Below, one piece after another: positions 1 to 19,930 of a stretch of DNA of 33,285 nucleotides; positions within the stretch are counted from its first letter, which is position 1, and every line of letters starts with the position of its first letter. The notes below the pieces were generated by a model, which had not been told where the DNA came from, ran no database searches, and saw only the letters and a program-made list of their open reading frames with translations. The stretch lies in the IMG/VR virus record IMGVR_UViG_3300027721_000961, positions 1-33,285 of that record, one strand, 5' to 3'. The position numbers and the translations under genes are program-made. The stretch is from a virus.

Positions 1-97
1 TTTCTCTTATGGATTTATCAATCTTTTTCTGGTGTCTTTCGGCATCCTTTATACCTTTTTCGGATAAATCCCAATCATCGTGTAATATAATACCCAT
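1..97 (-). CDS. yhbH: YhbH/YeaH-family protein, N-terminal fragment (cut by window edge)
   Basis: Thirty-two codons are visible, starting at ATG 97-95 and running off the left edge with no stop. A good ribosome site (GGAAAGGG, about 7 bases upstream) supports the start. The peptide contains DWDLSEKGIKDAERHQKK, which closely follows the N-terminus of Bacillus YhbH as I remember it (DWSLHRKG, then a RHQKK motif). YhbH/YeaH (UPF0229) is a VWA-like protein encoded beside PrkA/YeaG and SpoVR/YcgB in many bacteria and linked to sporulation or starvation. The prkA homologue lies just upstream at 498-2474, which strongly supports the call. The VWA part lies outside the window, so completeness cannot be judged. 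Confidence 0.72.
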   Translation of the reverse strand, partial: MGIILHDDWDLSEKGIKDAERHQKKIDKSIRE

Positions 98-121
98 TTT
101 AAAACCCTTTCCGTTTAAATT

Positions 122-376
122 TTAATCTTCTGATTCTTCAACATCTTCATTCTTTACAGACTCTTTCTTTTTAGAACATTTATCATTTGTAGAAAAGCCC
201 ATTTTATGTTTTTTCTTTTTCTTTTTATTTTCATAGCAATCATCATCATCAAACATTCTTATTTTATTTAAGAACTCTGTTTCTTCAACTTCATCAAAAT
301 TATCAAAGGAAGAGGCTATCACAGTTGTTTTTGATTCGTCCTCAACATCTCCGATTTGTACAGTTATTCTAATCAA
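122..376 (-). CDS. Small hypothetical protein with acidic and lysine-rich tracts
   Basis: 84 aa, not recognised. The start is TTG at 376-374, chosen because GAGAGGA lies 7 bases upstream and a strong promoter lies just beyond. Residues 1-35 look like a small globular segment (beta-type start MIRITVQIGDVEDE, then alternating acidic and hydrophobic residues). An acidic patch (FDDDDC) follows, then a lysine run, and an acidic tail (NEDVEESED). It sits between prkA and the yhbH-like gene and probably shares the yhbH transcript. The prkA, YhbH and SpoVR families have no member like this that I know of, so it may be an unrelated insertion or a phage-specific partner. The coding call rests on start signals and position only. 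Confidence 0.6.
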   Translation of the reverse strand: MIRITVQIGDVEDESKTTVIASSFDNFDEVEETEFLNKIRMFDDDDCYENKKKKKKHKMGFSTNDKCSKKKESVKNEDVEESED

Positions 377-407
377 TATATTATCCTCTCTTTCTTTTCT
401 TTTTTAT

Positions 408-436
408 ATTATACTATATTTATCAAAAGTTGTAAA
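408..436 (-). promoter_or_regulatory. Sigma70-type promoter for the 84-aa/yhbH-like unit
   Basis: On the minus strand, -35 TTTACA (436-431) and -10 TATAAT (413-408) are separated by exactly 17 bases. It lies 32 bases upstream of the TTG start at 376 and just downstream of the prkA terminator. The same two hexamers with the same spacing recur at 2526-2554 and 3542-3570. Confidence 0.85.
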
Positions 437-442
437 CTAAAT

Positions 443-479
443 AAAAAAGGCTGGGTGAATATAGATACACCCAGCCTTT
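443..479 (-). terminator. Rho-independent terminator after prkA
   Basis: A perfect 12-bp inverted repeat (446-457 with 468-479; arm AAAGGCTGGGTG) with a 10-base loop. On the minus strand the stem runs into six T residues (448-443). It lies about 20 bases beyond the prkA stop and ends that transcript before the next promoter. Confidence 0.92.
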
Positions 480-497
480 CCCAATCATAAGAAACTT

Positions 498-2474
498 TTA
501 CGATTGTTTTCTCAGTATTTCACCGACAAATGAAAGAAGAACATTTGCACAGTGTTCACAGTAACCTTTTTCCATCAAGGTCTTAAACGCTTTACTTCTC
601 GCTTTCATCCTCTTTGGATCGGTACTTGTGGTATTTACAATTGACAGATTGACCACATTTTTAAGATCACTCATTAGTTTCTTTTCAATCGCTTCTTTCA
701 AAGGTGCATAAGAATCATATTTAAATTCCTTGCCACGATCTCCGCAACTTGATTTATGAACAAATATACCGTTTCTAAATTCATCTTTGGAATTTACAGG
801 GACGCCAATAAGTTCTTCAAGTGATCGCATCAGTTTTTCATCAGGTGAACTATATTCACCCGTTGCTGTATCTTCAATCTTTTCTTTTCTACAGTAAGCT
901 CCGACATTCAACATATATCGGTTAAACAATTCGGTTGCTTGTTCGTCATAAGCGTGAAGGAATGCCATATTGATTTCTTTTTTGGCAAACTCACGGAACT
1001 CAGCAAGTGCTGAATCTTTTTCAGCAACCAACAGGTTTGTAAAGTTCTTAATATCCTGTTCTTCAATACCAGTGTGGTGATCAAAGTTTTGTTTAAGTGC
1101 TCGCAGAACATCAATTGGATTGATACAGTTTTTATCTTCTTTTGATGCGAGTGCTATATTAAGTGCATTGATAATAAACCTTGGAGATATACCTTGGTCC
1201 ATACCTTCACCATTTCTTCTCCCATCCTCACGAATCTTTTTAATATCAACTTCTTCCTTTTTAAATTCGTTAGATGTTCTACCATCATAGAGTTTCATTT
1301 TTTCAATCAAAGAGGAAACTTTGGTAGATTTCTTTAGCCTTGTTAATACGGCAAACTGTGCTGCCAATTCAAGGGTACCTGGAGCGATATGAATATTCCT
1401 AAAATCAGATTCTTGAATCATTTTCTTATAAATTTCAATTTCTTCGGATACATTCAAATTCCAGGGTACGATTACTTTATACATACGGTCATGAAGTGCT
1501 TCATTTTTCTTGTCCGATTTAAATGTATCATACTCTGTTTGGTTTGTATGCGAAAGAATCAATTCATCAAGATAAATCTGTGGAAAACCAGGTGACTTGA
1601 TTACTTGTTCTTGTGCCGCTGAAATAAGAACATAGTGAAATTTAATATCTGCTTTTAAAATTTCAATATATTCAATCAATCCACGGTTGGCAACTTGCAA
1701 TTCACCGTCAAAGCTAAATGCTCGGGGATCGGTTTCACCGTAACGAGCAATCTTAGCCATATTTACCCGACCGATTAACTCGGTAATATCTTGAGATTTT
1801 GGGTCGGATGGTTGAAATGTGCCAATTGCAATTCTTTCCTGTTCGGATGGTATTACTGCTGTAACCGGGATTTCAGACCAACGAACAGTTCCATCATCGT
1901 CAGTATAATTTTCTTTAACAACTTGACGACAATGAGGACAAAGATAACCCTCTATTTTAATACCCAACTTTTCTTCCCAATATGCTCGGTCATTGATTGG
2001 AATTGCATGCAAAGGTTCTTCATTGATCGGACAACCTTTGATTGCAAACATTGGTGTATCATCTTTTTCAAGACCTCGCTTTAATAGCGCCGCGATTGTA
2101 GACTTACCACTCGCGACTGGGCCCACCATGATTAAAATTCTTTTTCCTGTTTCAGTCCTACGTGCAGACGCTTTCAAGAATTTCATAACATCATGGATAG
2201 CCATCTTTGATTCAAGACCAAAGATTTTTCCATCAAAAAACTTATACTCCACGAGGTCTTCATACCCCGCTAATTTAACATCATTTGGTACATCATTAAC
2301 ACCGTATTTCATAATCATATTGAAAATACGACCTGGGGCAAAATTAGCAACCTCAGGATTTTTATGAACTAATTCTAAATAATCAAGCGAGTTTCCTTCC
2401 CATTTATGAAACGGATTAATTTTCTTTTGGGAAAGAATTGCTTGCTTGAAGTCTTCCATTAAAGGTGATAACAT
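498..2474 (-). CDS. prkA: PrkA/YeaG-family AAA+ protein (serine kinase/protease family)
   Basis: 658 aa, close to the usual 630-645 aa of bacterial PrkA and apparently intact. Visible landmarks are the N-terminal KWEGNSLDYLELV, Walker A GPVASGKST (residues 118-126), AIKGCP followed by NEEPLHAIP, GTFQPSDPKSQDI, the FDGEL/ANRG segment, SHTNQTEYDTF and DEKLMRSLEELIG, all in the PrkA family order. Cys pairs C179/C182 (CPHC) and C639/C642 (CEHC) could bind metal. PrkA was first described as a serine protein kinase; B. subtilis PrkA has been reported as an ATP-dependent protease affecting sporulation. It has its own promoter (2526-2554), an AAAGGAG ribosome site and its own terminator (443-479). 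In a phage it presumably acts on a host stress or developmental programme, but the target is unknown. Confidence 0.96.
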   Translation of the reverse strand: MLSPLMEDFKQAILSQKKINPFHKWEGNSLDYLELVHKNPEVANFAPGRIFNMIMKYGVNDVPNDVKLAGYEDLVEYKFFDGKIFGLESKMAIHDVMKFLKASARRTETGKRILIMVGPVASGKSTIAALLKRGLEKDDTPMFAIKGCPINEEPLHAIPINDRAYWEEKLGIKIEGYLCPHCRQVVKENYTDDDGTVRWSEIPVTAVIPSEQERIAIGTFQPSDPKSQDITELIGRVNMAKIARYGETDPRAFSFDGELQVANRGLIEYIEILKADIKFHYVLISAAQEQVIKSPGFPQIYLDELILSHTNQTEYDTFKSDKKNEALHDRMYKVIVPWNLNVSEEIEIYKKMIQESDFRNIHIAPGTLELAAQFAVLTRLKKSTKVSSLIEKMKLYDGRTSNEFKKEEVDIKKIREDGRRNGEGMDQGISPRFIINALNIALASKEDKNCINPIDVLRALKQNFDHHTGIEEQDIKNFTNLLVAEKDSALAEFREFAKKEINMAFLHAYDEQATELFNRYMLNVGAYCRKEKIEDTATGEYSSPDEKLMRSLEELIGVPVNSKDEFRNGIFVHKSSCGDRGKEFKYDSYAPLKEAIEKKLMSDLKNVVNLSIVNTTSTDPKRMKARSKAFKTLMEKGYCEHCANVLLSFVGEILRKQS

Positions 2475-2525: not shown

Positions 2526-2554
2526 ATTATAACACACGGAATAAAAATTGTAAA
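2526..2554 (-). promoter_or_regulatory. Sigma70-type promoter for prkA
   Basis: Minus-strand TTTACA (2554-2549), 17 bases, TATAAT (2531-2526), 52 bases upstream of the prkA ATG. It matches the hexamers and spacing at 408-436 and 3542-3570. There is no terminator between the upstream gene (ending at 2562) and this site, so prkA may also receive read-through. Confidence 0.85.
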
Positions 2555-2561
2555 TATTTTT

Positions 2562-3017
2562 TTATTCTTTTGGTTCTTTTAACAATTTTAAAACATCTTC
2601 TCTGGAGGCAATTATTAGATTTTGATTTTTTGGTGCCTCTTTCTTTTTTCTTTTCATTTCAATTTCTTTATCTTTTAATAATAACATACGGTTTCTTATT
2701 TGTAAATATACTTGGTAATTTTCATCTGTTATTAATTCTTTACTTGCTTGTGTTACTGAGTTTATTAAACCTGTTGCTACTTCAACAAGTCTCGCTGTTA
2801 TATTTCCATTATTTAATTCTTCTTCAACAGTATCTAATATTTTATTTGCTCTTTCTATATTATCTCTTATTATATTTCTTGGGTTATTTTCTTTTTCCCA
2901 TTCTTCTTCAAATTTATCTGGTCCACTTTCAGATACTTCTGGTTCCAACTCAATAGTTTCATCATGTTGGTTGTCTTGCATATTAAATTCTTCTTCTAAA
3001 TTTTGTCTATCTAACAT
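2562..3017 (-). CDS. Possible terminase small subunit (gp16-like)
   Basis: 151 aa. The first ~50 residues are acidic and probably disordered. A helical core (about 50-120) includes NIIRDNIERANKILDTVEEE and ARLVEVATGLINSVTQASKE, and a lysine-rich linker and short helical tail (EDVLKLLKEPKE) follow. T4 gp16 (164 aa) has the same plan: acidic start, a core around R-x-x-E-V-F-A-T-L followed by T-T-T-N-R-E-I-L, and a C-terminal tail. The small terminase recognises phage DNA and stimulates the large terminase during packaging. The ATG overlaps the stop of the upstream HAD gene (ATGTTAG). The large terminase is not in this window, so the call rests on fold pattern and proximity to head genes. A generic helical DNA-binding protein is the alternative. 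Confidence 0.45.
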   Translation of the reverse strand: MLDRQNLEEEFNMQDNQHDETIELEPEVSESGPDKFEEEWEKENNPRNIIRDNIERANKILDTVEEELNNGNITARLVEVATGLINSVTQASKELITDENYQVYLQIRNRMLLLKDKEIEMKRKKKEAPKNQNLIIASREDVLKLLKEPKE

Positions 3018-3511
3018 TGTATTTTTTCCTTAACAATACTATTCAATTTTTCTATGGTTTCATCACTTGATTTGTGTAATATGCCAATACCTCCGTTATC
3101 TTCCCATTCATTTATGTTTTGTTCAAAATCATCAATTAAAATAGAATTAGAATTTGAATATAACTTTTTTTCTTTTCTATGGCATATAATTGCATCTTTA
3201 TAAAATTCATAACCAAGATTATTTTTTATCCAGTCCAACTTACCGTTTCTTACATCTTCATGTACTGTAAAATTACCACGAGCAGCAGCTGATAGTAAAG
3301 TTGGTTTATATGTATTTATACCTTTCCATAGATTTTTACCATCTATTGTCCAAGGATTACTTGCCCAGAATTTTCTACCTGCTTTAACCAGTAGAAAAAA
3401 CCTTTTCTCCATATCATCTATGTCCCAAAAATTTTCACAAAAATTTGTTACATTTGTTTTCCAATCTACCAATACATCATCCATGTCACAATAGATTTTA
3501 AATTTTTTCAT
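3011..3511 (-). CDS. HAD-family 5'(3')-nucleotidase-like phosphatase, untagged
   Basis: 166 aa. HAD motif I is YCDMDDVLVDW, with nucleophile D9 and acid/base D11. The late acidic motif is ILIDDFEQNINEW (D127/D128). The compact size and the D-M-D-D-V-L-x-D-W start are typical of phage and bacterial 5'(3')-deoxyribonucleotidase-type HAD proteins, which dephosphorylate nucleotides and can tune dNTP pools. It lacks the N-terminal capsid tag seen on the other HAD protein here (17971-18699), so it is expected to act in the infected cell. It has its own promoter and overlaps the next gene by 7 bases. The substrate is inferred from family resemblance only. Confidence 0.8.
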   Translation of the reverse strand: MKKFKIYCDMDDVLVDWKTNVTNFCENFWDIDDMEKRFFLLVKAGRKFWASNPWTIDGKNLWKGINTYKPTLLSAAARGNFTVHEDVRNGKLDWIKNNLGYEFYKDAIICHRKEKKLYSNSNSILIDDFEQNINEWEDNGGIGILHKSSDETIEKLNSIVKEKIQC

Positions 3512-3541: not shown

Positions 3542-3570
3542 ATTATAACATAAATTATGAAAAATGTAAA
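3542..3570 (-). promoter_or_regulatory. Sigma70-type promoter for the HAD/small-terminase unit
   Basis: Minus-strand TTTACA (3570-3565), 17 bases, TATAAT (3547-3542), 31 bases upstream of the HAD gene ATG. It begins only five bases beyond the T-run of the capsid-gene terminator, so this unit is uncoupled from capsid transcription. Confidence 0.87.
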
Positions 3571-3575
3571 TAAAC

Positions 3576-3601
3576 AAAAAACCCATTTCCGAGGAAATGG
3601 G
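3576..3601 (-). terminator. Rho-independent terminator after the major capsid gene
   Basis: Inverted repeat CCCATTTC/GAAATGGG (3582-3589 with 3594-3601) with a four-base loop. On the minus strand it is followed by six T residues (3581-3576). It lies about 30 bases past the capsid stop. Confidence 0.9.
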
Positions 3602-3633
3602 CTCTTTGTTATTCATTTATTCTTTGATAAAAA

Positions 3634-4836
3634 TTAGGCAGGTAGATTTGTCAAAGAAACTTTTTGATAGTAATTCTTTGATCCATATAGATGATCGTGA
3701 ATACCATATCTTGACATCAAGCCAACTGTTGGATGGAATGAATCTTCAAATACTGCACGGGATGCCAGCAATTGAACATAAGGCAGGTAAATAACACCTG
3801 TATCATATTCTGAAGGTCCTTTATAACCAATAAGGAATTGATTTGATGATTGGAAGGTGTCACGATAAACACTCAATCTTCCATCAATAGAACCGATTCT
3901 TGCGATACCAACTTGTGATGTATTAACATTACCAGCGACTGGTGCGATAGTAAAACCGGCCATTGCTTCAAAAATTGCTACGGCATATGGGTTACCAACG
4001 ATCCAGTTACCAGAACCTCTACGAGTATTAATTGCAATATCTTGTGAACGTCTTAGGATATAGTGATAAAGTTCTCTATATCTTTCAAGTTCCCATCTAC
4101 CACCTGGAACGCCTGTACCTGAAGCTGCTTGGTAGTTCCAAGTTCTGTCAAAAAGTGCACCACCGGCAACACAAACTGAGTCAATCTTTTGAATCAATTC
4201 ACGGTCAATTTCTGCTGTGATTTCATAAGCCAGAATGTCCATCATTTCTTCTTCAAGATTCAATCCGTGCATAGCCTTCAAATCTTGTGCAACTTCAAGA
4301 GACCATCTACTTCTCAACTTTCTTGTTTTTGCTTCGATTTGTGCTTTTTCAACTGTCATGTTTACTTCTTTAATTTCTGCGTTTGTACCGATACCAAGAC
4401 CACGGTTATTTGTGCCTGCATCGGAACCCAAAGTTTCACCAGCGGATGTAATAACTGATCCAGAATAAGTTGAATCAATTGTATTATATCCAAGTTCAAC
4501 ATTTGCTGTTGAGTCGTAATCTTGACCGGCTCTAAAGCGAATTGCGAATGCCAAACCAACTGGACCTGTCATTGGTTGAACACCAACGAGGTCGTGTGCT
4601 ACTAATTCAGGGAAGGTTCTACGAACCATAGGTACTGCGATTTTGTGGAACATACCTGATCCAGCGTAACCAGCTTGTGTACCAAGAGAGTCATTACCGA
4701 ATGCTGTTGCTTCCATCAGAAAGTTATGCTCATTTTCAAGCATGATTGCTGTTGCTCTACGAACATTATAGTTCTTAATTTCATTACCTTCATTAAGAAC
4801 TTCTTTCCACTTAACTAACAAGTCTTTAATTTCCAT
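3634..4836 (-). CDS. Major capsid protein, gp23-like, with cleavable propeptide
   Basis: 400 aa. It aligns by eye with T4 gp23: the start EIKDLLVKWKEVLNEG resembles gp23 AELLNKWKPLLEGEG, and MVRRTFPELVAHDLVGVQPM corresponds to MVRRAIPNLIAFDICGVQPM. In T4 the propeptide is removed by gp21 after an (I/L)-x-E motif. Here NFLMEATAFG gives a predicted cut after E42, leaving a mature shell protein of about 358 aa (T4 is cut after residue 65). It forms the prohead lattice around the scaffold. It is preceded by an AGGAG ribosome site and followed by a strong terminator. No separate gp24-like vertex gene is present in the window. Confidence 0.95.
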   Translation of the reverse strand: MEIKDLLVKWKEVLNEGNEIKNYNVRRATAIMLENEHNFLMEATAFGNDSLGTQAGYAGSGMFHKIAVPMVRRTFPELVAHDLVGVQPMTGPVGLAFAIRFRAGQDYDSTANVELGYNTIDSTYSGSVITSAGETLGSDAGTNNRGLGIGTNAEIKEVNMTVEKAQIEAKTRKLRSRWSLEVAQDLKAMHGLNLEEEMMDILAYEITAEIDRELIQKIDSVCVAGGALFDRTWNYQAASGTGVPGGRWELERYRELYHYILRRSQDIAINTRRGSGNWIVGNPYAVAIFEAMAGFTIAPVAGNVNTSQVGIARIGSIDGRLSVYRDTFQSSNQFLIGYKGPSEYDTGVIYLPYVQLLASRAVFEDSFHPTVGLMSRYGIHDHLYGSKNYYQKVSLTNLPA

Positions 4837-5968: not shown

Positions 5969-6178
5969 TTATTTCCAATGAATTACGGTGTACCCTTTTT
6001 TATTCATATCGTCAATATCTTCTTCTGTTACAATAGAGCCGATAGGATAATCCCAACTTTGAGTCCACAATACTTCGTTTCCTTTCAGATATACTTGTGT
6101 TTGTTTAGTCCACCAAGTATTGAAAGCCATCTCACTTGATTCGGATATAAATCTATCTATTTTACTTAGTAATTTCAT
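5969..6178 (-). CDS. Small tagged head/internal protein between protease and scaffold
   Basis: 69 aa, family not recognised. The first 13 residues, MKLLSKIDRFISE, fit the N-terminal tag shared by many genes here and end in I-S-E, a predicted gp21-type cut site, leaving about 56 residues. The rest has aromatic-rich beta character (NTWWTKQTQVYLKG, ending GYTVIHWK). Its ATG overlaps the stop of the protease gene (TAATG). T4 has no gene at this exact place between 21 and 22, so this looks like a cargo gene inserted into the assembly operon. Confidence 0.8.
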   Translation of the reverse strand: MKLLSKIDRFISESSEMAFNTWWTKQTQVYLKGNEVLWTQSWDYPIGSIVTEEDIDDMNKKGYTVIHWK

Positions 6179-6954
6179 TATAAACCTCTGTTCAAGTAAA
6201 ATTCAATTATACCTTCTTTATTTGATTCAACAATTCTTTTAATTTGTTCTTTTGTTTTACCTTTGAAAATGAATGCTTGTAGATATTCAACTACATTATC
6301 CATAACATTCTCATTTTTGGTATCACCCTTCCATTCTTTTTCAACTTCATCAAAAAATTTCTTTTTTTCTTCAGGTGATAACTCACTTGGAGATGATACA
6401 TTATATTTCTTTAATTTTTCTTGGAAGAATTTTTGATATGCTGATTCCTCATTTTTCATATTAAACTCCTTACCTTCATATATTCCATTAATCCAAGAAG
6501 GATTATTTGATGGGTCTGTTACAAGGTCCCATGTTATCAAATTAAAGTCTTCATTAACATATCCATTTTCTGATACTGTTCCGAGACCTCGTGATGATAT
6601 ACCTAAACTACCTTCTTTTACTAATGTTTTTGCTATTTGTCCCATAGGTGTGTCAAGTACTTTTGCTTTACCATAAACATGGTCACCTTTCCACTCAACC
6701 ATCTTGGTTAATATAGCGATTTTGTCCATATTAATTTCTGGATTTGGTGGATGTCCAAGTTCACCCCATAGAGAACCTTTATCTACTTTTTCATTAATCT
6801 TTTTAATTTCTCTTTCAAGTATATCTCTTTTGTATTTTCTCTTATTGTTATTTTCAATTTCAGCAGATGAAAAGATACCAACAATATGCATGTTTTTATC
6901 TGATTTGCTTTCTACTAATTGAAGTTCATAAGATGTTTCAGTAATAAGTTTCAT
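6178..6954 (-). CDS. Prohead maturation protease, gp21-like
   Basis: 258 aa. Family landmarks are VGIFSSAEIENNNKRKY (the family's N-x-N-K-R start), GELGHPP with catalytic His68, and GISSRGLG with the catalytic Ser at 120 or 121. A later Asp (D143/D147) could complete the triad. These match the T4 gp21 motifs GELNHPP and GVSSRGLG. The enzyme sits in the prohead core, cleaves after (I/L)-x-E, removes the capsid propeptide, trims internal proteins and digests the scaffold. Its own start, MKLITETSYELQLVESK, contains L-x-E-type sites (ITE, LVE) compatible with self-trimming. It lies between the gp67-like and scaffold genes, as in T4. It should be the processing enzyme for every tagged protein listed here. 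Confidence 0.95.
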   Translation of the reverse strand: MKLITETSYELQLVESKSDKNMHIVGIFSSAEIENNNKRKYKRDILEREIKKINEKVDKGSLWGELGHPPNPEINMDKIAILTKMVEWKGDHVYGKAKVLDTPMGQIAKTLVKEGSLGISSRGLGTVSENGYVNEDFNLITWDLVTDPSNNPSWINGIYEGKEFNMKNEESAYQKFFQEKLKKYNVSSPSELSPEEKKKFFDEVEKEWKGDTKNENVMDNVVEYLQAFIFKGKTKEQIKRIVESNKEGIIEFYLNRGL

Positions 6955-7191: not shown

Positions 7192-8769
7192 TTAATATGT
7201 TTCCTCTGGTTCTTTAGGAACAAGACCCAATTGTTTATCCTTTATTTTACCTTCAAGATTTAAATCTATTTCTTCATCAGACCATTTAAGATACCTTTTC
7301 ATCAAATAATATTTACTCATTTCTTCTCTATCTGCAATACTTGAATAGTTATTAAAACGAGTTTCTAAAAAGTTTTGTTCCATTTGTTCTTTGTAATTAG
7401 ATGGAGCGGTCATATGAATTTTTATTTTTTTATGATCTAAGTCATATTGTTTTTTTAGACCTTTGAAATCCAAATGTAGTAAGAATACTTTTTCAAATTC
7501 TTTACAAAATTTATCTTGTTGTTTTTCTAAGTATTTACTCCATTTTATTTCATCACGGGATATTTCACCTGTATTACTTCCACCAAAAAGAACGTCACCT
7601 TCTCTTTTTTCTTGTGATGCTGTTACTCTTGATGCTGGGTATTTTAATGCTCTATACATTTTTCTTGCAAAGTAATAAATGTCATCCAACTCAGCAAAAC
7701 CGGCTGCATTACCACCAACAGATTCAATTTGTGATCCACGACCATCTGCTGATTGTGGTAGATAATAATTTTCAAGCATACTAAATATTTCAGGTTCGTT
7801 TGTAAGTTGTCCTGTAGTTGGATTGTATGTTTGTTTTTTAGAAAGTTTTTGTTTTACCTTTTCAACATATTTTAATGCTTTATCTTTTGGCATGTTTCCT
7901 GTATCAATTCTAAATACCAATCTTTCAGGTGCTCTAATAAGTCTGTATATAATAACAGATGTTTCCAAAAGTTTTAATTGATTATATGGAACTCTTGCCT
8001 TTTCAAGATAACCTAAAATATCATGTCTTGATATGCCATATATACCACTGTTAATAAAACCTATTTGTTCAGGATTAAATAATATTAATTCTCTTCCATC
8101 TTTTGCCTTTGCTTCTTCTATGTTGTTTAATGTTGTTGGTGTTTCGGTTAAATACTGAACATAATTATATATGTGTCCCGATTTTGGTTCATAAAAATAA
8201 TCCATTGTTTCAGAAGGAAGTTTCTTTAAACCTATTATACCATTTTTAGGTGTTCTTGTGTCAATTATTCTTTCATAATAAAATCTACCATCAATCATAT
8301 AGGTTCTAAAAGCATCCCACAAAAAGTCTGAAAAATCATCAATTGTATTTTCAAATAGATATTTAAATTCTTTGTTTATATTATTAACTATATTTTCGTT
8401 CTTACTTAAAACCGCATCTCTTATTTCCAATGTTAATAAATCACCATTTATATCTTCTTGTGTTGCTTCATTTGTGGCATCTTCTATAACATCAGCAACT
8501 TCTGTCATTAATGCCATTTCTCTATAACCAAAAATTTTCTGTCTTTCATTTGCCCATGATGGATTAACATATTTGTTATAGAATAAATTAAATGAACCTA
8601 TAGCTAAATGACCTATACCAGGAAATTCATGTAGATTTTCCCAACCTTCACCAGTAGCAGATTTTAAATCTACTTCGGTGGGTATTTCGGCCTTGCTTTG
8701 GAAAGCCTTTAATTCTTCTTGTACAATACCTCTTACTTCGTCATTGTTTTTATTAAAAAACCAGCCCAT
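7192..8769 (-). CDS. Portal protein, gp20-like
   Basis: 525 aa, essentially the length of T4 gp20 (524 aa). Diagnostic stretches are KIFGYREMALMTEVADVIED, VIIYRLIRAPERLVFRID, GNMPKDKALKYVEKV and SADGRGSQIESVGGNAAG. Each has a clear counterpart in gp20 (YREM; IYRISRAPERRVFYVDVGN; GGRGTEI). The portal forms the dodecameric ring at one vertex, nucleates prohead assembly and is the DNA channel. It is the first gene of the assembly block, preceded by an AAGGAAA ribosome site and a TATAAATA element. Confidence 0.96.
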   Translation of the reverse strand: MGWFFNKNNDEVRGIVQEELKAFQSKAEIPTEVDLKSATGEGWENLHEFPGIGHLAIGSFNLFYNKYVNPSWANERQKIFGYREMALMTEVADVIEDATNEATQEDINGDLLTLEIRDAVLSKNENIVNNINKEFKYLFENTIDDFSDFLWDAFRTYMIDGRFYYERIIDTRTPKNGIIGLKKLPSETMDYFYEPKSGHIYNYVQYLTETPTTLNNIEEAKAKDGRELILFNPEQIGFINSGIYGISRHDILGYLEKARVPYNQLKLLETSVIIYRLIRAPERLVFRIDTGNMPKDKALKYVEKVKQKLSKKQTYNPTTGQLTNEPEIFSMLENYYLPQSADGRGSQIESVGGNAAGFAELDDIYYFARKMYRALKYPASRVTASQEKREGDVLFGGSNTGEISRDEIKWSKYLEKQQDKFCKEFEKVFLLHLDFKGLKKQYDLDHKKIKIHMTAPSNYKEQMEQNFLETRFNNYSSIADREEMSKYYLMKRYLKWSDEEIDLNLEGKIKDKQLGLVPKEPEETY

Positions 8770-8796: not shown

Positions 8797-8804
8797 TATT
8801 TATA
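8797..8804 (-). promoter_or_regulatory. Candidate T4-type late promoter box (TATAAATA) upstream of the portal gene
   Basis: TATAAATA on the minus strand in the 51-base gap upstream of the portal ATG, 27 bases from the start. T4 late genes use this exact box with gp55/gp33/gp45. Such strings are common by chance in this AT-rich DNA, so intergenic position is the main support. Confidence 0.45.
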
Positions 8805-8820: not shown

Positions 8821-9108
8821 TTATTTTTTATACTTATCAACATAATCTGGTGGTAATTCACCTTTATCTTTTAAATCGTTAATGGCAAGTTCTCTTATTT
8901 TATCTTGTATTTTGTTTTCTATTATTTGGTCAGCTTCTCTTGCAAGTCTTTCATCTATTTCTTGTTGTGTTTCAAATGGATCAGGTGTATTACCTTCTGC
9001 TAACCATTTTAGATATTCTTTATAACTTCTATTACCTTCACTTAGCGGAATATATTTACCTGTTTCTGTATCTAATATATTAAATTCTTTTATTTTATAT
9101 TTTGCCAT
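8821..9108 (-). CDS. Tail-fibre-associated small protein
   Basis: 95 aa. It begins with beta-type KYKIKEFNILDTETGKYIP. The segment YKEYLKWLAEGNTPDPFETQ follows, a pattern (short helix, W-L-x-x-G-N-x-P-x-P) seen at the ends of many phage tail-fibre proteins and their companions. The last 40 residues are a charged helix. The ATG overlaps the stop of the large fibre gene (TAATG), so the two are translationally coupled and probably form a fibre/partner pair such as a tip or assembly factor. No chaperone family could be assigned. Confidence 0.65.
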   Translation of the reverse strand: MAKYKIKEFNILDTETGKYIPLSEGNRSYKEYLKWLAEGNTPDPFETQQEIDERLAREADQIIENKIQDKIRELAINDLKDKGELPPDYVDKYKK

Positions 9109-12100
9109 TACATTATCTCCGCATCAAAAGAATATAAACCCGCATATGCTCTAAAAGAACCATTTGCTGTTACTGTTACTCTATGTATCCAACCAATAGT
9201 ATTAGAAACTAAATCATAGTCCGTACAGTTATTATATGTTGGTGTTGTTATAATAGCAGCATCAGGATTATCTCGCATTCTTGTATGAAATGTATCACCA
9301 TCAATTCCACAAACAACACCTGCTAAACCATATCTATAACCATAACCTTGACCAGTTGCATAACTATTCATATAATATCGTTGACACATTGCAGTTTCTA
9401 CTACCGTAGGTCTAAACTCAAATGGTGTTGCAATCGTTCCTGGTTCCAATTGAACTTGTGCCAATCTGAAATAGTTAGATGTACTATTGATATTATTATC
9501 AATATTAGATGTTGCTAATTTATTTGCATTTTCCCAGGTATCCACACTTGAAACATGTCTATCAGAACCACAAGCAAGAACAAAAAAGATTTCTAATCCA
9601 CTACCATTTGTGTAATTCCAAGTTCCAATACCACCACCATCAAATACTATTAATATTTCTTTTTTCTCCCAAGTAGCAGATGAGTCTATAGTAAAATCTG
9701 TTGCGTAAGATGCATCATTAGTACTATTTCTCATTGATATACAGTATGTTCCTGTTTTATATGCTTTAACCCAAAATGATAATACACCAGTTTTACCTTG
9801 AATATATTTGAAATCATAACCTTCAATATTGTAACCAATCATAAAATATTGAGTAGCACCAATACTTGAATCTGCTGTTGTAATTTGAACATTAAGTGAT
9901 GTTGTAGGTGCTCCTTGATTTGCAGGAACATCTGAATTGGATGTAATAGTACATGCGGCGTCACTACTTGCAACATATCTCCATCTATCAGAAGTATAAG
10001 CATTTGATGCTGGTGATGTAAATGTTGCTCCTCTTGCCCAAACTTGAAAATTTCCATTTATGATTAGATTTTTATGTGTATAGGTATCTACAATATATTC
10101 GGTTAATCTATTAACATCCTCTTTAGCACTTGCAGATAACTCTAATGTTTGAAGGTTATTCTCATTATCAATATATTCGGTTAATCTATTATCACCTTCA
10201 TCTATTGCAGCAGATAGGTTGGTAGATAATGTATTTAAACTTTGGTCAATATATTCGGTTAACCTATTATCACCTTCATCTATAGAAGCAGATAACTCCA
10301 ATGTTTGGAGATTATTTGATAGGTCAATATACTCATATAACCTATTATCACCTTCATCTATAGAAGCAGATAGATTGATGGTCTTGCTATCTATATAATT
10401 TCTAACAGCATTATCACTTTCAACACTTGCGGCAGATAATGAATCTGATAGTGTGTTTATATATTCGGTTAATCTATTAACATCCTCTTTAGAACTTGCA
10501 GATAAGTTGGTAGATAAGGTTGATATGTTACTATCAATATATTCGGTTAATCTATTATCACCTTCATCTATTGCAGCAGATAGACTATTAGATAAGGTAT
10601 TTAAGTTTTGGTCTATATATTCATATAGTCTGTTATCTTCCTCTTTTGAAGATGCAGATAATATACTTGATGATGTTAATAAATGCTCATATAACCTATT
10701 ATCACCTTCATCTATTGCTCCTGAAAGGTTGACAGTCTTACTATCAATATATTCGGTTAATCTATTATCACCTTCATCTATTGCAGCAGATAGGTTGGTA
10801 GATAATGTATTTAAACTTTGGTCAATATATTCATATAGTCTGTTATCTTCCTCTTTTGAAGATGCAGATAAGTTTATAGATAATGTATTTAAATTTTGGT
10901 CAATATACTCATATAACCTATTATCACCTTCATCTATTGCTCCTGAAAGGTTAATTGTTGATAGAGTATAATCTATATATTCATATAGACGATTATCTTC
11001 CTCTTTTGAAGATGCAGATAAGTTGGCAGTCTTACTATCAATATATTCGGTTAACCTATTATCACCTTCATCTATTGCTCCTGAAATACTGGTAGATAAT
11101 GTATTTAAACCAAGATTTATATATTCATATAGTCTGTTATCTTCCTCTTTTGAAGATGCAGATAAACTTGTTGATGTGGTTGATATATTATTATCTATAT
11201 ACTCATAAATCCTATTATCACCTTCATCTATTGCAGCAGATAGACTATTAGATAAAGTATTTAAATTTTGGTCTATATATTCATAAATCCTATTATCACC
11301 TTCATCTATTGCTCCTGAAAGACTGATGGTCTTACTATCTATATAATTTCTAACAGCATTATCACCTTCAATGCTTGCAGCAGATAACGAATCTGATAAT
11401 GTGTTTATATATTCGGTTAATCTATTATCACCTTCATTTATTGCCCCTGAAAGGTTGGTAGATAAGGTATTTAAGTTTTGGTCTATATATTCGGTTAATC
11501 TATTATCACCTTCATCTATTGCTCCTGAAATACTGGTAGATAAGGTTGATAAAGCATAATCTATATACTCATAAATCCTATTATCACTTTCATCTATTGC
11601 TCCCGATAGATTATTGGATAATGTATTTAAGTTTTGGTCTATATATTCATATAACCTATTGTCATCCTCTTTAGCACTTGCGGATAATGAATCTGATAGT
11701 GTGTTTATATATTCAATTAATCTATTATCACCTTCATCTATTGCAGCAGATAACTCCAATGTTTGGAGATTATTTGATAGGTCAATATATTCAATTAATC
11801 TATTATCACCTTCATCTATTGCAGCAGATAGGTTAATTGTTGATAAAGCATAATCTATATACTCATATAACCTATTATCACCTTCATCTATTGCTCCCGA
11901 TAGATTATTGGATAATGTATTTAAACCGAGATTTATATATTCAGTTAATCTATTATCACCTTCATCTGATGCTGCAGATATGGATAGAGAGTTTGATGAT
12001 AAGGATAAATTGATTGTATCAACATATGATTTTGGTGTTAATTCATATGAACTAACAGGTGATAATTTTTTAGTATAGATTCTATCACCATATATATTAC

Positions 12101-12512
12101 CTATTGCAGATACATTTTTACTAAAGGTCGTATCTTCTTCAAATGTCCATGATGCAGAGACTTTTTCTGATTGTGTTAGATTTGCATATTGAGTGTGGTC
12201 ATCTTCTCTAAGACCTGTTAATACATTATGTGCCCTTGCATTAAATATATCAATATCACTATATCTTAAATTAGCGGATATTACATCAAATTTTTGTGTA
12301 ACATCATAATCATCTGTATCAACCCAAAATTCAAATCTACCATAATTATCAGTAGTAATTTGAGGTATTGTTGATATACCAGTTACAATAATTTCCGTTG
12401 TGTATATAGTTGCTGGATTATTTGTACCTGCCAAATATATTGATATACCAATATTTTTTTGAGCGTTACCAAAAGTGTCAACTGACCTCGCTAAAATTTT
12501 ATAACGAGCCAT
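9108..12512 (-). CDS. Long tail fibre / receptor-binding protein with 26 tandem repeats
   Basis: 1134 aa. Residues 1-95 form a beta-rich attachment domain (carboxypeptidase-regulatory-like: GTNNPATIYTTEI, TDNYGRFEFWVDTDDYDV). HNVLTGLREDDHTQY (about 95-110) is a collar motif typical of trimeric fibres. Residues ~175-810 hold 26 tandem repeats of 22, 24 or 26 residues, of the type SGAIDEGDNRLTEYID. The C-terminal ~320 residues begin NLIINGNFQVWARG and include TSDRWRY, QLEPGTIATPFEFRP and MCQRYYMN, a widespread phage receptor-binding head with a jelly-roll carbohydrate-binding look. The protein probably forms a long trimeric shaft with the adhesive tip at the C-terminus. The repeats make the gene prone to length change and mis-assembly. 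Confidence 0.92.
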   Translation of the reverse strand: MARYKILARSVDTFGNAQKNIGISIYLAGTNNPATIYTTEIIVTGISTIPQITTDNYGRFEFWVDTDDYDVTQKFDVISANLRYSDIDIFNARAHNVLTGLREDDHTQYANLTQSEKVSASWTFEEDTTFSKNVSAIGNIYGDRIYTKKLSPVSSYELTPKSYVDTINLSLSSNSLSISAASDEGDNRLTEYINLGLNTLSNNLSGAIDEGDNRLYEYIDYALSTINLSAAIDEGDNRLIEYIDLSNNLQTLELSAAIDEGDNRLIEYINTLSDSLSASAKEDDNRLYEYIDQNLNTLSNNLSGAIDESDNRIYEYIDYALSTLSTSISGAIDEGDNRLTEYIDQNLNTLSTNLSGAINEGDNRLTEYINTLSDSLSAASIEGDNAVRNYIDSKTISLSGAIDEGDNRIYEYIDQNLNTLSNSLSAAIDEGDNRIYEYIDNNISTTSTSLSASSKEEDNRLYEYINLGLNTLSTSISGAIDEGDNRLTEYIDSKTANLSASSKEEDNRLYEYIDYTLSTINLSGAIDEGDNRLYEYIDQNLNTLSINLSASSKEEDNRLYEYIDQSLNTLSTNLSAAIDEGDNRLTEYIDSKTVNLSGAIDEGDNRLYEHLLTSSSILSASSKEEDNRLYEYIDQNLNTLSNSLSAAIDEGDNRLTEYIDSNISTLSTNLSASSKEDVNRLTEYINTLSDSLSAASVESDNAVRNYIDSKTINLSASIDEGDNRLYEYIDLSNNLQTLELSASIDEGDNRLTEYIDQSLNTLSTNLSAAIDEGDNRLTEYIDNENNLQTLELSASAKEDVNRLTEYIVDTYTHKNLIINGNFQVWARGATFTSPASNAYTSDRWRYVASSDAACTITSNSDVPANQGAPTTSLNVQITTADSSIGATQYFMIGYNIEGYDFKYIQGKTGVLSFWVKAYKTGTYCISMRNSTNDASYATDFTIDSSATWEKKEILIVFDGGGIGTWNYTNGSGLEIFFVLACGSDRHVSSVDTWENANKLATSNIDNNINSTSNYFRLAQVQLEPGTIATPFEFRPTVVETAMCQRYYMNSYATGQGYGYRYGLAGVVCGIDGDTFHTRMRDNPDAAIITTPTYNNCTDYDLVSNTIGWIHRVTVTANGSFRAYAGLYSFDAEIM
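10085..11985 (-). repeat. Coding tandem repeats of the tail-fibre shaft
   Basis: 26 degenerate units of 66, 72 or 78 bp within the fibre gene. Each encodes a core of type D-E-G-D-N-R-L-x-E-Y-I. Eight units are 22 aa, two are 24 aa and most others are 26 aa. Whole sub-blocks recur in different combinations, indicating recombination inside the gene. Confidence 0.95.
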
Positions 12513-12952
12513 TAATAAATACCCCCACTCATACCGAAGAAATCTAAAACTATTTGATATTCTGGTATATTTACATCAACCAATGTTGATTTATAACTTA
12601 AAATATCAAATGTTTTTTCAAATTTAATATCTGTTGAATATAGACTATAATATAGGAAATAATTATCATCATTTTTAAAATCTATATCCGTTGAATATAA
12701 ATCATAATATAATATTTCTGTAATATTTCTAAATCTTAATATGTATGAATATTCTTCTGAATTTCTATCTATAAATTTTGCACCGAAATATAAAGAATCA
12801 AAAGATTTTTTAAATTTAATATCTGTTGAATATAGGTCATAATATAAAAAATATCTATCACTATTCTTTAAGTCTATATCTGTTGAGTATAGATCATAAT
12901 ATAATGTTTCTGATATGTTTCTAAATGTTTTTGTATCAATCTTATTTAACAT
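12512..12952 (-). CDS. Repetitive virion protein of LYYDLYSTDI repeats
   Basis: 146 aa with a 64-residue tandem duplication: FRNISETLYYDLYSTDIDLK at residue 10 recurs as FRNITEILYYDLYSTDIDFK at residue 74. Each half holds two copies of LYYDLYSTDI 19 residues apart (residues 17, 36, 81, 100), giving four in all. The alternating aromatic/polar pattern suggests stacked beta strands. It overlaps the tail-fibre start by one base and follows an Ig-like gene, so a fibre-attachment or baseplate-decoration role is likely. No family was recognised. Confidence 0.75.
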   Translation of the reverse strand: MLNKIDTKTFRNISETLYYDLYSTDIDLKNSDRYFLYYDLYSTDIKFKKSFDSLYFGAKFIDRNSEEYSYILRFRNITEILYYDLYSTDIDFKNDDNYFLYYSLYSTDIKFEKTFDILSYKSTLVDVNIPEYQIVLDFFGMSGGIY

Positions 12953-13249
12953 TTATAATTCTACAACATCAACATCGGTTATATGATAATATGTATAACC
13001 CCCATATAATATTTTCCATTTTACTGTATATGAACCAACAATTCCAGTTACAACTGTATCTAATATTGTATATATTTTTTCACCACTTATCATTACAATA
13101 TGTTCATCAACAACTATATTATTTTCACTATCATATATTGTTGCATATGCACCGCTTGGATTAAACGGTGCACCTGTATGATCATTTATTGATAATTCCA
13201 AGGGTCTTATTTCATTTTGATTTATTTCTTGATGTGTTCTATTTGCCAT
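12953..13249 (-). CDS. Small Ig-like/BppU-type tail protein
   Basis: 98 aa. After a polar start (MANRTHQEINQNEIRPLELS), it has a predicted beta-sandwich: AYATIYDSENNIVVDEHIVM, KIYTILDTVVTGIVGSYTVK and YTYYHITDVDVVEL. This order (property definition, optional value, G-S-Y-T-V-K-W-K) resembles the N-terminal BppU-like or Ig-like domains used to attach fibres to baseplates. It is immediately followed by the repeat protein and the fibre gene. Function inferred from fold pattern and place. Confidence 0.6.
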   Translation of the reverse strand: MANRTHQEINQNEIRPLELSINDHTGAPFNPSGAYATIYDSENNIVVDEHIVMISGEKIYTILDTVVTGIVGSYTVKWKILYGGYTYYHITDVDVVEL

Positions 13250-13252
13250 TAT

Positions 13253-13768
13253 CTATTTCCTTTTGGGGAATTTTCCTGTTTGTTTAAAGAAATTACGAGC
13301 GTTCATTACTTGTCTAAATTTATTTACCAATGCGGTTTTTATTTTCTTAGAGAAGTCTTTACTCCATGTTGATACTATTGCTTTTTCCCAATCTTGAAAT
13401 GGTACTTCAGTTAAATCTGTTATATAATATGTTGGTTTGAAAAAATATCTTCTTACAGCTGTTTGTATATATGGATATCTTAACTTAATTTTTTCCCAGG
13501 TAAGTCTTGTATTTTGTGTTCTTATAAATTCATCTATCCATTCTTTTGCAAATTGTTTTCTGGATGATCTTGGCACATAAGTAAAATTAATGGCTTGAAA
13601 AAATCTCCATTGATGACCTGTGGTTGGGTGTGTACCATCAAGAGCATACATAATAATAACAGTAGGTTTGGGGTCATTTTGCCATGCTTGATATGAAAAT
13701 GTATATATGTGACCTGATTTTACCGTAACACCTTTAAATGATTTTCTAAAAACTCTTGATATTGTCAT
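13253..13768 (-). CDS. Conserved phage virion-assembly protein of unknown role
   Basis: 171 aa, basic, ending in a lysine/arginine-rich tail (KQTGKFPKRK). Features are IYTFSYQAWQNDPKPTVIIM, TGHQWRFFQAINFTYVPR, LRYPYIQTAVRRY and FSKKIKTALVNKF. I recall proteins with this order (Y-x-W/Y-x-N-D-P-x-P, then Q-x-R-x-x-Q-A-I-N-x-x-Y-V-P-R) from the structural regions of many large phages, without a known function. Position between the ParB-like and Ig-like genes suggests a neck, baseplate or DNA-end role. It has no N-terminal capsid tag. Confidence 0.65.
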   Translation of the reverse strand: MTISRVFRKSFKGVTVKSGHIYTFSYQAWQNDPKPTVIIMYALDGTHPTTGHQWRFFQAINFTYVPRSSRKQFAKEWIDEFIRTQNTRLTWEKIKLRYPYIQTAVRRYFFKPTYYITDLTEVPFQDWEKAIVSTWSKDFSKKIKTALVNKFRQVMNARNFFKQTGKFPKRK

Positions 13769-13771
13769 ATT

Positions 13772-14248
13772 TTATACTCTCAAATCCAACCACAATACTT
13801 TTGGTTTAATACCTATTATAAAAGCTATATCTAATCTTGTATTACCGGCCATTATCCATGGACCTCTTTCACCTTGTATTACTATAGGCATTGGCATTTT
13901 AGAATTTGATTGATAGCCTTGTAATATATATTCAACATCACGAGGCCTTTTATAAATAGAAACGAGTGATTTTAAATCCTTTAATGTGGTACACCTACTT
14001 CTATTTTTTATTTTATAATCCATAGAATGGGTAAGTGCTATTATAGGAGAATTATCTAAATCTTTTTTAAAATCTTCTAATGTTGGGAATAAGGGAAATC
14101 TAAAACCCATTAAGTGTGCTCTATTTTTCCATCTGTTGTCCTCTTTCTTTTTATATTCAAGAAAATCCATTTTAATTGATTCTGATGTATAACGAACCCA
14201 GTTTGTAAAATTTTTATTTTCGTCTAAATATTTTTCATATATTTTCAT
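13772..14248 (-). CDS. Tagged ParB-like protein
   Basis: 158 aa. The start MKIYEKYLDE fits the shared capsid tag, with a predicted cut after E10. Residues ~100-158 contain VEYILQGYQ, PIVIQGERGPWIMAGNTRLD and IGIKPKVLWLDL. The G-N-T-R-L motif (135-139) inside this beta-helix-beta pattern is typical of the ParB N-terminal/sulfiredoxin-like fold, which includes CTPases, nucleases and kinases. It lacks the HTH part of true ParB. Overlaps are ATGA with the gene upstream. If the tag works, this small enzyme or DNA-binding protein would be packed in the head. The reaction is unknown. Confidence 0.7.
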   Translation of the reverse strand: MKIYEKYLDENKNFTNWVRYTSESIKMDFLEYKKKEDNRWKNRAHLMGFRFPLFPTLEDFKKDLDNSPIIALTHSMDYKIKNRSRCTTLKDLKSLVSIYKRPRDVEYILQGYQSNSKMPMPIVIQGERGPWIMAGNTRLDIAFIIGIKPKVLWLDLRV

Positions 14249-14430
14249 CTTAAAGTTATTCCTAAAATCTTTTTAACTAATTTAACAAACTCTTTCCAGT
14301 TGTTCTCTTTTATTACATCTTCTAATTTTTTTATTTCATCTGCTGTTGCTTTTTGGTATAACTCAACCATTTCTTGAAACCCAAGGTTACCGATATATGA
14401 TGCCTCATCTAAAAATTTCCTAATTCTCAT
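14245..14430 (-). CDS. Tagged 61-aa helical head/internal protein
   Basis: The start MRIRKFLDEASYIGN carries the tag, with a predicted cut at L-D-E9/A10, the same E/A junction as T4 IPIII-type proteins. The remaining 52 residues, GFQEMVELYQKATADEIKK then a helix ending KKILGITLR, form a small helical bundle. Similar short domains occur in other phages in my memory without a known role. The gene overlaps its neighbours on both sides by ATGA, so translation is coupled with the gp4-like and ParB-like genes. Confidence 0.78.
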   Translation of the reverse strand: MRIRKFLDEASYIGNLGFQEMVELYQKATADEIKKLEDVIKENNWKEFVKLVKKILGITLR

Positions 14431-14888
14431 TTTTTAAATAATTCCTTTTCTGTAAGAATTTTCCATTCAAAACCCATTCTCTTACAATATTTTTGTGCTG
14501 CTTCAAATTTTGCCTGGTTTGTTATCCATGTTGCTTCTTGATGCAATTTTGTTTTACTACTTTTATTACCTCGGGCTGTTGGTGGTATTGTTTCTTTTTT
14601 AGGTTTTATTTCTACAAGATATTCTATATCTTTTTCAGATGTTTTTACTCTCATCCAAAAATCGGGATAATATCTTCTATTTTTCATTTGTATAGGGTCA
14701 TAATATTGAATGATATGAGCCTCTGATGCCCACGCTAAAACATTAGGATTAACATCTATCCATTGGCAAAACATTCTTTCCCAGGATGATCTAATAATTA
14801 TAGGATATCTACCAACATACTTTTCAACATTTTTAGGTATGTATTCACTACAATTACCACCACTTTTTTTACATTTTATAAAAGTCAT
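14427..14888 (-). CDS. Head-completion nuclease, gp4-like
   Basis: 153 aa, like T4 gp4 (about 150 aa). Motifs are RSSWERMFCQWID (residues 33-45), NVLAWASEAHIIQYYDP, RRYYPDFWMRV (D76) and YLVEIKPKKET (E93, K95), followed by TWITNQAKFEAAQKYCK and ILTEKELF. D76...E93-x-K95 is a PD-(D/E)xK nuclease core. In T4, gp4 acts after packaging to finish the head so the tail can join, and its family shares the R-S-S-W-E/E-I-K-P pattern. A Cys pair near the start (C6, C13) is extra. No capsid tag. Confidence 0.85.
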   Translation of the reverse strand: MTFIKCKKSGGNCSEYIPKNVEKYVGRYPIIIRSSWERMFCQWIDVNPNVLAWASEAHIIQYYDPIQMKNRRYYPDFWMRVKTSEKDIEYLVEIKPKKETIPPTARGNKSSKTKLHQEATWITNQAKFEAAQKYCKRMGFEWKILTEKELFKK

Positions 14889-15449
14889 TTATTTTTTAAT
14901 CTCTATCCTTTTAAACCAACCTCTTGCATATTTTTCTTGTGTAGGTGATTTTTTCATATATTCAATATAATGCATACCTTGTAATACATTTAATATAACA
15001 CATAATATTTCCATATCAGATTTTGGTAAACTATTATATGCTCTAAGTGTATTTGTTCCAAATGAACTATCCTCAACTATATCAGAATATATTTTGCCAT
15101 CTCTATTCAATAAGTTAAGGCCTTGTTGTAAAAATTTTACTGCTCTACCTATACCCATATTGACGGCAGTATCAAACATTTCATTTGATATGATTTGGTC
15201 TAACTCATCACCTAAGAATGGATTCCAATATCTCTCTTTATAAAAACTTCTAACTAAAGGATCAAGTTCATTATTTGGAAAATCTTTATTTTTATCCTTA
15301 CACTCATCTATTATTTTCCAACCTTCCCAAGTTGGGTTAAATCTTCTTGATATACCTCTATATGTTTCACCACCAGCATCATCAGGATCATTTACATAAC
15401 CACCCTCATGTGCCATTGTTATATCAAATGCTTTATTAAAATTTGCCAT
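14889..15449 (-). CDS. GH108 N-acetylmuramidase (endolysin)
   Basis: 186 aa, the usual GH108 size. The N-terminal catalytic motif is HEGGYVNDPDDAGGETYRG with catalytic Glu15. Next come SFYKERYWNPF and FDTAVNMGIGRAVKFLQQGL, then the C-terminal peptidoglycan-binding half (ILNVLQGMHYIEYMKKSP, ARGWFKRI). GH108 enzymes cut the glycan backbone of peptidoglycan and are most frequent in phages of Gram-negative bacteria. No signal peptide or membrane anchor is visible, so release would need a holin not identified here. Its place among head genes leaves open a virion-associated role. Confidence 0.93.
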   Translation of the reverse strand: MANFNKAFDITMAHEGGYVNDPDDAGGETYRGISRRFNPTWEGWKIIDECKDKNKDFPNNELDPLVRSFYKERYWNPFLGDELDQIISNEMFDTAVNMGIGRAVKFLQQGLNLLNRDGKIYSDIVEDSSFGTNTLRAYNSLPKSDMEILCVILNVLQGMHYIEYMKKSPTQEKYARGWFKRIEIKK

Positions 15450-18721: not shown

Positions 18722-19930
18722 TTGTTGGATAAAATTAGGGTATTATTAATAGAAGATGATGAGATAAGTATTGTTGTTACCAAAGAACTATTGGAAAGAG
18801 CACCGGAAAATTTTATAATAGATACAGCCAAAACACTAAAGGAAGGTATTGATAAATTAAAAAAGTGTTTGACTGATAACTTATATGATATTGTATTATT
18901 GGATTTAATATTACCAAATGGTGAAGGATTAAAGGTATTTAAACAGGTAAAGGATGTTTGTACTCTTATTCCTATAATTATTGTATCTGGATTTGAAGAT
19001 AAGGCAATTGAATGTATGCGATATGGTGCACAAGATTATCTTCTTAAACCTTATTTAAATTCCAAGATATTATCAAAAGCTATTATATATTCAATAGAAA
19101 GATTTAATTCTGATAAAAAATATAAACGATTGGTTGAAAGTACACATGCATCAATATATGAGATTGATATAAAGAAAGGTGTTTTTTCTTTTGTTAATGA
19201 TGTATTTTGCGAAGAAATGGGTGTTTTTAACCAAGAGTTTGTAGGTAAAAAAATAGAAAGTATTTTTACAAAACATTCTTATGAGTTATTAAAAAGTAGA
19301 TTGGATAGTGTTAGAAATGGACGAGATATTTCATCAATTGTTGAATATGAATTTATTACAAAATGTGGAAATAGAAAATGGTTTTTAGTTACTTCTGAAT
19401 ATATTAAACGCAATGGTGAAGTTGTAAAATTAAATTCTATAGCAATAAATGTAACAGAAAAGAAAGAACAAGAAAAACGAATAAGTAGTATTTTAAAAAC
19501 TGCTCCTGTTATTATCGGTTATTTAAAAGATGGTAGAGTTATTCATGATATTAATGATAGAGCTTGTGATGTTTTGGGTTATAGAAAAGATGAGTTGATT
19601 GGTAATAATATAAGAATGCTTTATATTGACAATGAAGAATATGAAAGAGTTGGTCGTATAAAATATGAAGAAATAGAAAAATATGGTATAGGTACCATAG
19701 AGACACAATGGAAATGTAAAAATGGTGAATTGATTGATGTTCTTTTAAGTACTACCTGTATTGATAGAAAGAATATATCTTTAGGTTCAACATTTTCAGC
19801 ACTTGATATAACTGAAAAGAAAAAGCATGAAAAAGAATTAGAGGAAATTCTTAATAGGAAAATTGATCAATGGAAAAATGAAGTATTACAAAATGATATT
19901 GATAAGTTGATTAATATCACCAAGGACTAA
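18722..19930 (+). CDS. Response-regulator receiver with two PAS domains
   Basis: 402 aa, start TTG with GAGG upstream. Residues 1-125 are a canonical receiver: acidic pair D12/D13, phosphoacceptor D61 (DIVLLDLILPNGEG), S89 (IIIVSGFED) and K109 (DYLLKPY). Two PAS/PAC units follow, about 130-245 (ending INVTEKKEQEKR) and 250-370 (DGRVIHDINDRACDVLGYRK, ending LDITEKKKHEK), then a short coiled coil. There is no kinase, GGDEF, EAL, HD-GYP or DNA-binding output. Such proteins normally pass phosphoryl or ligand signals inside two-component networks. In a phage it may read or titrate a host signalling phosphorelay. It sits 22 bases after the HAD gene and 7 bases before a membrane protein gene. No capsid tag is present. 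Probably acquired from a bacterium. Confidence 0.92.
   Translation: MLDKIRVLLIEDDEISIVVTKELLERAPENFIIDTAKTLKEGIDKLKKCLTDNLYDIVLLDLILPNGEGLKVFKQVKDVCTLIPIIIVSGFEDKAIECMRYGAQDYLLKPYLNSKILSKAIIYSIERFNSDKKYKRLVESTHASIYEIDIKKGVFSFVNDVFCEEMGVFNQEFVGKKIESIFTKHSYELLKSRLDSVRNGRDISSIVEYEFITKCGNRKWFLVTSEYIKRNGEVVKLNSIAINVTEKKEQEKRISSILKTAPVIIGYLKDGRVIHDINDRACDVLGYRKDELIGNNIRMLYIDNEEYERVGRIKYEEIEKYGIGTIETQWKCKNGELIDVLLSTTCIDRKNISLGSTFSALDITEKKKHEKELEEILNRKIDQWKNEVLQNDIDKLINITKD

Follow-up and report, generated by a model that had tools for sequence, protein, structure and literature searches.

The closest described system is the bacterial PrkA-YhbH-SpoVR trio (YeaG-YeaH-YcgB in E. coli), the genes of which cluster across bacteria, with yeaH and ycgB contributing to antimicrobial-peptide resistance (PMC2375023). 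Under nitrogen starvation YeaG and YeaH together quiesce the metabolism of E. coli and have been called a 'metabolic brake' (PMC10954441; PMC4664914). The trio is also found in non-spore-formers such as E. coli, and sporulation is one cellular role among several (PMC10954441). In B. anthracis, PrkA is required for efficient sporulation, apparently without kinase or protease activity, and supports survival of osmotic stress; whether even the cellular protein has either activity is a matter of dispute (PMC13001217).

PrkA and SpoVR of phages are already on record. The Thermus phages phiYS40, TMA, MN1, phiLo and Lalka carry PrkA, SpoVR and a YhbH-like VWA protein, and their records already name SpoVR and a serine kinase. 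Huge uncultured phages (LR756511, LR745206, LR756502 and LR756504) also have the trio, mostly as one operon, and the Ralstonia jumbo phage RsoM2USA encodes SpoVR (ORF28) and PrkA (ORF30), although its proteins are reported to be much closer to bacterial ones (PMC8504454). A viral spoVR auxiliary gene from the ETNP oxygen minimum zone has likewise been tied to the physiological state of the host, but the portions of that report considered here count single genes and contain no PrkA-YhbH-SpoVR cassette, phage clade or phylogeny (PMC8940887). The PHROGs collection contains all three families, mostly without a function label. Two further records hold parts of the trio. In Enterobacter phage LAU1 (L197:1-3308), yeaG and yeaH at the record start look like the host flank of a prophage, and in Bacillus phage CM1 (L198:2135-3052) a YhbH-like 'sporulation protein' stands alone next to RtcB, neither PrkA nor SpoVR occurring in the stretch around it. 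In the open-licence literature, where silence is not proof of absence, no description of the trio as a phage cassette was found, and we did not find described the fixed, jointly inherited trio of a T4-like clade that is reported below.

The stretch of DNA analysed here, called the window, is 33.3 kb long and corresponds to the IMG/VR virus record IMGVR_UViG_3300027721_000961 (33,285 nt). Its minus strand carries the T4-like head genes gp20, gp21, core and gp23, including the portal protein gp20 (7192..8769; phrog_213, 1e-100), with the late motif TATAAATA at 8797-8804, the head maturation protease gp21 (6178..6954; phrog_207, 1e-54) and the major capsid protein gp23 (3634..4836; phrog_138, 8e-86). 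Together with gp17, which lies on overlapping contigs, gp20, gp21 and gp23 are all of T4 type and place the virus among the T4-like phages. Compared with cultured T4-like phages, gp23 and gp17 reach at best about 35-38% identity among the matches listed, mostly to cyanophages, and no close cultured relative was found among those matches. Elsewhere in the window, a 402-aa protein with response-regulator receiver and PAS domains (18722-19927, plus strand) appears as a phage-borne signalling protein beside a divergent region, and a large tail-fibre-like protein (9108-12512, minus strand) contains many internal DNA repeats, 78-91% alike to parts of the adjoining contig end.

The gp23 transcript is closed by a strong terminator (3573..3610, minus strand, as are all features of this block; 17-pair stem, -23.5 kcal/mol, z -8.1), and a sigma-70-type promoter, TTTACA-17-TATAAT with 11/12 matches (3542..3570), opens the following block. 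This block comprises a 5'-3' deoxyribonucleotidase-like gene (3011..3511; phrog_2643, E 2e-24), the gp16-like small terminase (2562..3017; phrog_445, E 8e-6), which is the left neighbour of the cassette and precedes PrkA in 62 of 71 loci, and PrkA itself (498..2474; 658 aa; 71 distinct phage homologues). Upstream of PrkA stands a second TTTACA-17-TATAAT promoter (2526..2554; 11/12), with TG before the -10, and several relatives have identical hexamers (TTTACA, TATAAT) at this place. A sequence-only reading had taken this PrkA to be complete and to possess a Walker A motif, and both points are borne out: residues 30-386 match AAA_PrkA (PF08298; 8e-111, 371 bits) and residues 390-649 the PrkA C-terminal domain (PF06798; 3e-66, 224 bits), each against a cut-off of 25 bits in Pfam, and within the Walker A sequence GPVASGKST the residues G118, P119, V120, K124 and S125 are invariant in 15 phage sequences. 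The same reading had placed a terminator, a promoter and one small gene between PrkA and the YhbH start, where all three were located: an intrinsic terminator (440..475; hairpin of -14.4 kcal/mol, z -5.1, followed by a T run), a third TTTACA-17-TATAAT promoter (408..436; 11/12) preceding both the small gene and YhbH, and an 84-aa gene with a TTG start (122..376). The 84-aa gene has no match to any Pfam or PHROG family; it amounts to 11 ORFs among the first-scan loci and the window, and is absent from most of the clade.

At the left edge of the window, only the first 32 codons of YhbH (DUF444) are present (2..97, minus strand), cut by the contig edge, and this 32-residue stub, too short for the purpose, has no Pfam match on its own. 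Three contigs (L002, L003 and L004), however, overlap the window across 10,474 bases at 99.91-99.96% identity and run on past its edge through a full YhbH and a full SpoVR into gp17, the large terminase; L002 is from the same population as the window. In L002, YhbH (10378-11670) has 430 aa and matches PF04285 over residues 8-428 (4e-94, 317 bits), SpoVR (11689-13272) has 527 aa and matches PF04293 (1e-97, 327 bits) and SpoVR_C (PF24755, 42 bits), and gp17 (13381-14922) follows. The proposed YhbH N-terminus is thus the start of a complete gene, and the leftward extension, which had been set beforehand as a check, yields both a full VWA-like YhbH and a SpoVR. The cassette resembles the bacterial system in that the three families are full length and adjacent, in the order of many bacterial operons, and differs from it in being phage-borne and set among head and packaging genes.

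Prevalence was assessed from the 71 distinct PrkA loci that two scans of viral contigs yielded, and was counted in the 45 of them whose downstream sequence exceeds 6 kb. YhbH is present in 45/45, SpoVR in 44/45 and gp17 in 36/45, with the exact order gp16-PrkA-YhbH-SpoVR-gp17 in 34/45. In the reverse test from gp17 (the best 80 of 371 matches, so that the result holds for relatives of at least about 58% gp17 identity), 62 of the 64 loci having enough upstream sequence contain SpoVR; in the two others the upstream sequence ends after about 3 kb, a distance that in other phages of the group is first taken up by several small genes. In some T4-like members (L138, L147, L174 and L177), the trio lies away from gp16 and gp17. 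Three diverged members (L178-L180; 54% PrkA identity) have gp16, PrkA and YhbH, and SpoVR was not found nearby. The trio is a near-fixed part of the genome in a group of uncultured T4-like viruses.

In each of the three protein trees, which are quick searches with SH-aLRT as the sole support, the genes of the T4-like phages fall into a single clade, with SH-aLRT values of 97-99. The sister group in the PrkA, YhbH and SpoVR trees consists of the identical five bacterial loci, of Spirochaetota and delta/Myxococcota type, in which the three genes are adjacent as well. Because all three trees give the same rare bacterial type, which also shares a UBA-like insert in YhbH, the trio of the T4-like clade appears to have been acquired jointly, and once. 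Joint acquisition had been suggested beforehand, with phylogeny against bacterial homologues as its check, and the common sister group rules out different bacterial origins for the three genes. The donor type is rare, since a sample of 198 spirochaete-phylum genomes contains just three with any PrkA at the limit used, two of them of the near type. That the nearest bacterial relatives are mis-binned phage contigs is unlikely, the three loci inspected having a GC content of 0.53-0.66 and neighbours that look bacterial by eye.

The PrkA proteins of the Thermus phages, of LR756511 and of LR745206/LR756504 fall elsewhere in the tree than the T4-like clade. A tree constrained to a single origin of all phage PrkA is rejected (p 2e-61), and so is one holding T4-like and Thermus phage PrkA together (p 0.009); the Thermus rows are long branches, which calls for caution. 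These separate placements and rejected constraints indicate that phages have captured the complete trio several times, with the Thermus phages and the huge phages having done so independently. The Thermus phage trio further differs from the present one in its order (YhbH-SpoVR-PrkA), its much diverged SpoVR and a surrounding region that is not T4-like, and the huge phages represent at least two further origins, near Desulfobacterota-type and YeaG-type PrkA.

Between close pairs, dN/dS of PrkA, YhbH and SpoVR is 0.02-0.18, a range like that of gp17 and gp23, with some dS values near saturation. The distance matrices of the three genes correlate at 0.71-0.77 with each other and at 0.29-0.72 with those of gp23 and gp17, as for a cassette whose members are more tightly linked in descent to one another than to the head genes. 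These data and the trio's presence in 44/45 PrkA loci agree with the earlier suggestion of selection for the module rather than chance. All three genes also contain intein-like insertions in various members, each starting with C or S and ending with HN: in PrkA at two sites (L028:5991-9299, L034:5997-9062, L189:4991-8191 and L033:8529-10819), in YhbH beside the GGT metal-site motif (L138:9438-12074), and in SpoVR inside NEG[FW]A (L190:5282-7978, L266:415-3093, L034:10756-13335 and L256:1-2490). Inteins typically occupy conserved sites in functioning proteins.

The predicted structure of YhbH matches VWA domains (best Z 17.4), and the VWA metal site DxSxS...T...D (D251, S253, S255, T310 and D341) is kept in 41/41 sequences. 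YhbH also has an insert, roughly 40 residues long and UBA-like in pattern (about residues 172-210 of the L002 protein), which forms three helices in the predicted model and weakly matches the NAC-like structure 1tr8 (E 0.036). Among the YhbH sequences checked, those of the T4-like phages and of the near bacteria have the insert, whereas the remaining bacterial ones lack it, L092 among them having an unrelated Gly/Ser-rich insert; it sets the phage YhbH apart from all but the rare near bacterial type.

In SpoVR, residues H106, H110, E274 and H281 are kept in 41/41 sequences. No solved SpoVR structure was found by sequence search. The predicted model (pLDDT 87.7) is largely helical and is best aligned by VIA-align with the gluzincin 3o0y (Z 13.1; 3.9 A, 194 aligned residues), followed by M1/LTA4H (LTA4H Z 10.6), ACE and M32 members at Z of about 7-10.6. 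The gluzincin-like fold is only a lead, because the Foldseek search with the same model gave no significant E-value. The invariant E274 falls within NEG[FW]A, which we take to resemble the third-ligand motif of M1 peptidases. The HxxxH is invariant, but the position of the catalytic Glu in HExxH is occupied by Val in 38, Cys in two and Ala in one of the 41 sequences. SpoVR as a gluzincin metallopeptidase with an HExxH active site is thus rejected, and it should not be called a peptidase. The likeness to gluzincins without the catalytic Glu may apply to cellular SpoVR as well.

Across 47 genomes, in which the searched intervals differ in length, the T4-type late motif TATAAATA precedes gp17 in 33, gp16 in 29 and YhbH in eight, and PrkA or SpoVR in none; gp20, core, gp16 and gp17 of the clade are often preceded by it. 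Sigma-70-type sites with at least 11/12 matches occur before gp16 in 20 of the 47 genomes and before PrkA and YhbH in 12 each, compared with about 0-1% of shuffled 120-base upstream stretches. Counted over all of the first 18 kb of the window, sigma-70 hits are no more frequent than by chance (113 vs 110), so that only the gene-upstream test across genomes is informative. The pattern supports transcription of the cassette by the host polymerase, with late transcription presumably re-initiating at gp17. The sequence-only reading had given each phage gene its own strong host-type promoter, which holds for the genes starting at 3511, 2474 and 376 and fails for the others. Its proposal of early expression survives in so far as the promoter motifs put the cassette outside the late programme, but the late promoter often present before gp16 may read through into PrkA.

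The phage holds an intact, co-acquired bacterial PrkA-YhbH-SpoVR system as a core cassette, and full-length domains, retention of the trio, low dN/dS, invariant residues and several independent captures make it very probable that this system works. In such a system PrkA would be an AAA+ motor, YhbH a VWA adaptor of which the UBA-like insert could bind substrate, and SpoVR an effector with a gluzincin-like fold, and the three together would remodel or inactivate host targets. Transcribed by the host polymerase from the sigma-70-type promoters, the cassette may act like the 'metabolic brake' of E. coli YeaG/YeaH, so that infection could go on, or pause, while the starved host is kept alive. The brake role, with its direction and its target, is suggested by analogy with YeaG/YeaH, by the sigma-70-type promoters and by the missing late motif before PrkA and SpoVR, and we put it at a little under an even chance. 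The placement of the cassette among head and packaging genes counts against it, as does the disputed or obscure state of the targets and biochemistry of the cellular trio (PMC13001217), and growth slowing by YeaG is not obviously of benefit to a lytic phage. The full picture is put forward tentatively: the trio would be core infection machinery in a large uncultured T4-like clade, captured whole several times by phages, its AAA+/VWA/pseudo-gluzincin parts and UBA-like substrate arm forming a machine that is switched on through the host polymerase and sets the growth state of the host.

The same placement might mean that the trio has a part in building the virion or packaging its DNA, as a remodelling machine of AAA+/VWA type that was recruited to the head and terminase genes. 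The trio is fixed between the small and the large terminase in the T4-like clade and is also near TerL or portal in the Thermus phages YS40 and Lalka27b. A general link between trio and terminase is, however, not upheld, and this reading is weakened, because the trio of phiLo is about 19 kb from a terminase-like gene and that of MN1 has no annotated head or terminase gene close by. In the huge phage LR745206 the trio forms a separate operon, in some T4-like members, as given above, it is not next to gp16 and gp17, and the late motif stands before gp17 but not before PrkA or SpoVR. To our knowledge, most T4-like phages package their DNA without PrkA-YhbH-SpoVR. An assembly role is therefore regarded as unlikely.

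We think it equally unlikely that the phage copy opposes the PrkA system of the host, as a decoy or dominant-negative form preventing dormancy or sporulation during infection. Dormancy blocks phage growth, and host-type promoters would suit early action; in a decoy, however, one would not expect strong purifying selection on three proteins that are full length and retain every invariant motif, nor capture of the complete set several times. Another shared biochemistry unrelated to dormancy, for example proteostasis or protection against envelope stress in the infected cell, would fit the roles of yeaH and ycgB in antimicrobial-peptide resistance (PMC2375023) and of PrkA in osmotic-stress survival of B. 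anthracis (PMC13001217), but overlaps with the brake reading, as all of these are stress functions, and as a separate explanation it seems rather improbable. That host genes were picked up by chance and do nothing for the phage may hold for isolated records, Enterobacter phage LAU1 being one. For the T4-like clade, chance capture is refuted, because the trio is nearly fixed, is under purifying selection and has been taken up complete more than once, and overall it deserves hardly any credence.

On the favoured reading, a working PrkA-YhbH-SpoVR system with a possible brake role, a cellular machine of disputed biochemistry has a compact counterpart in phages, which gives two predicted structural hints for that machine, the UBA-like insert of YhbH and the gluzincin-like fold of SpoVR without the catalytic Glu. 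Starved, non-growing hosts are common in nature, and conserved shut-down genes make it genetically testable how phages handle them. The cassette suggests that these viruses supply their own control over the resting state of the host.
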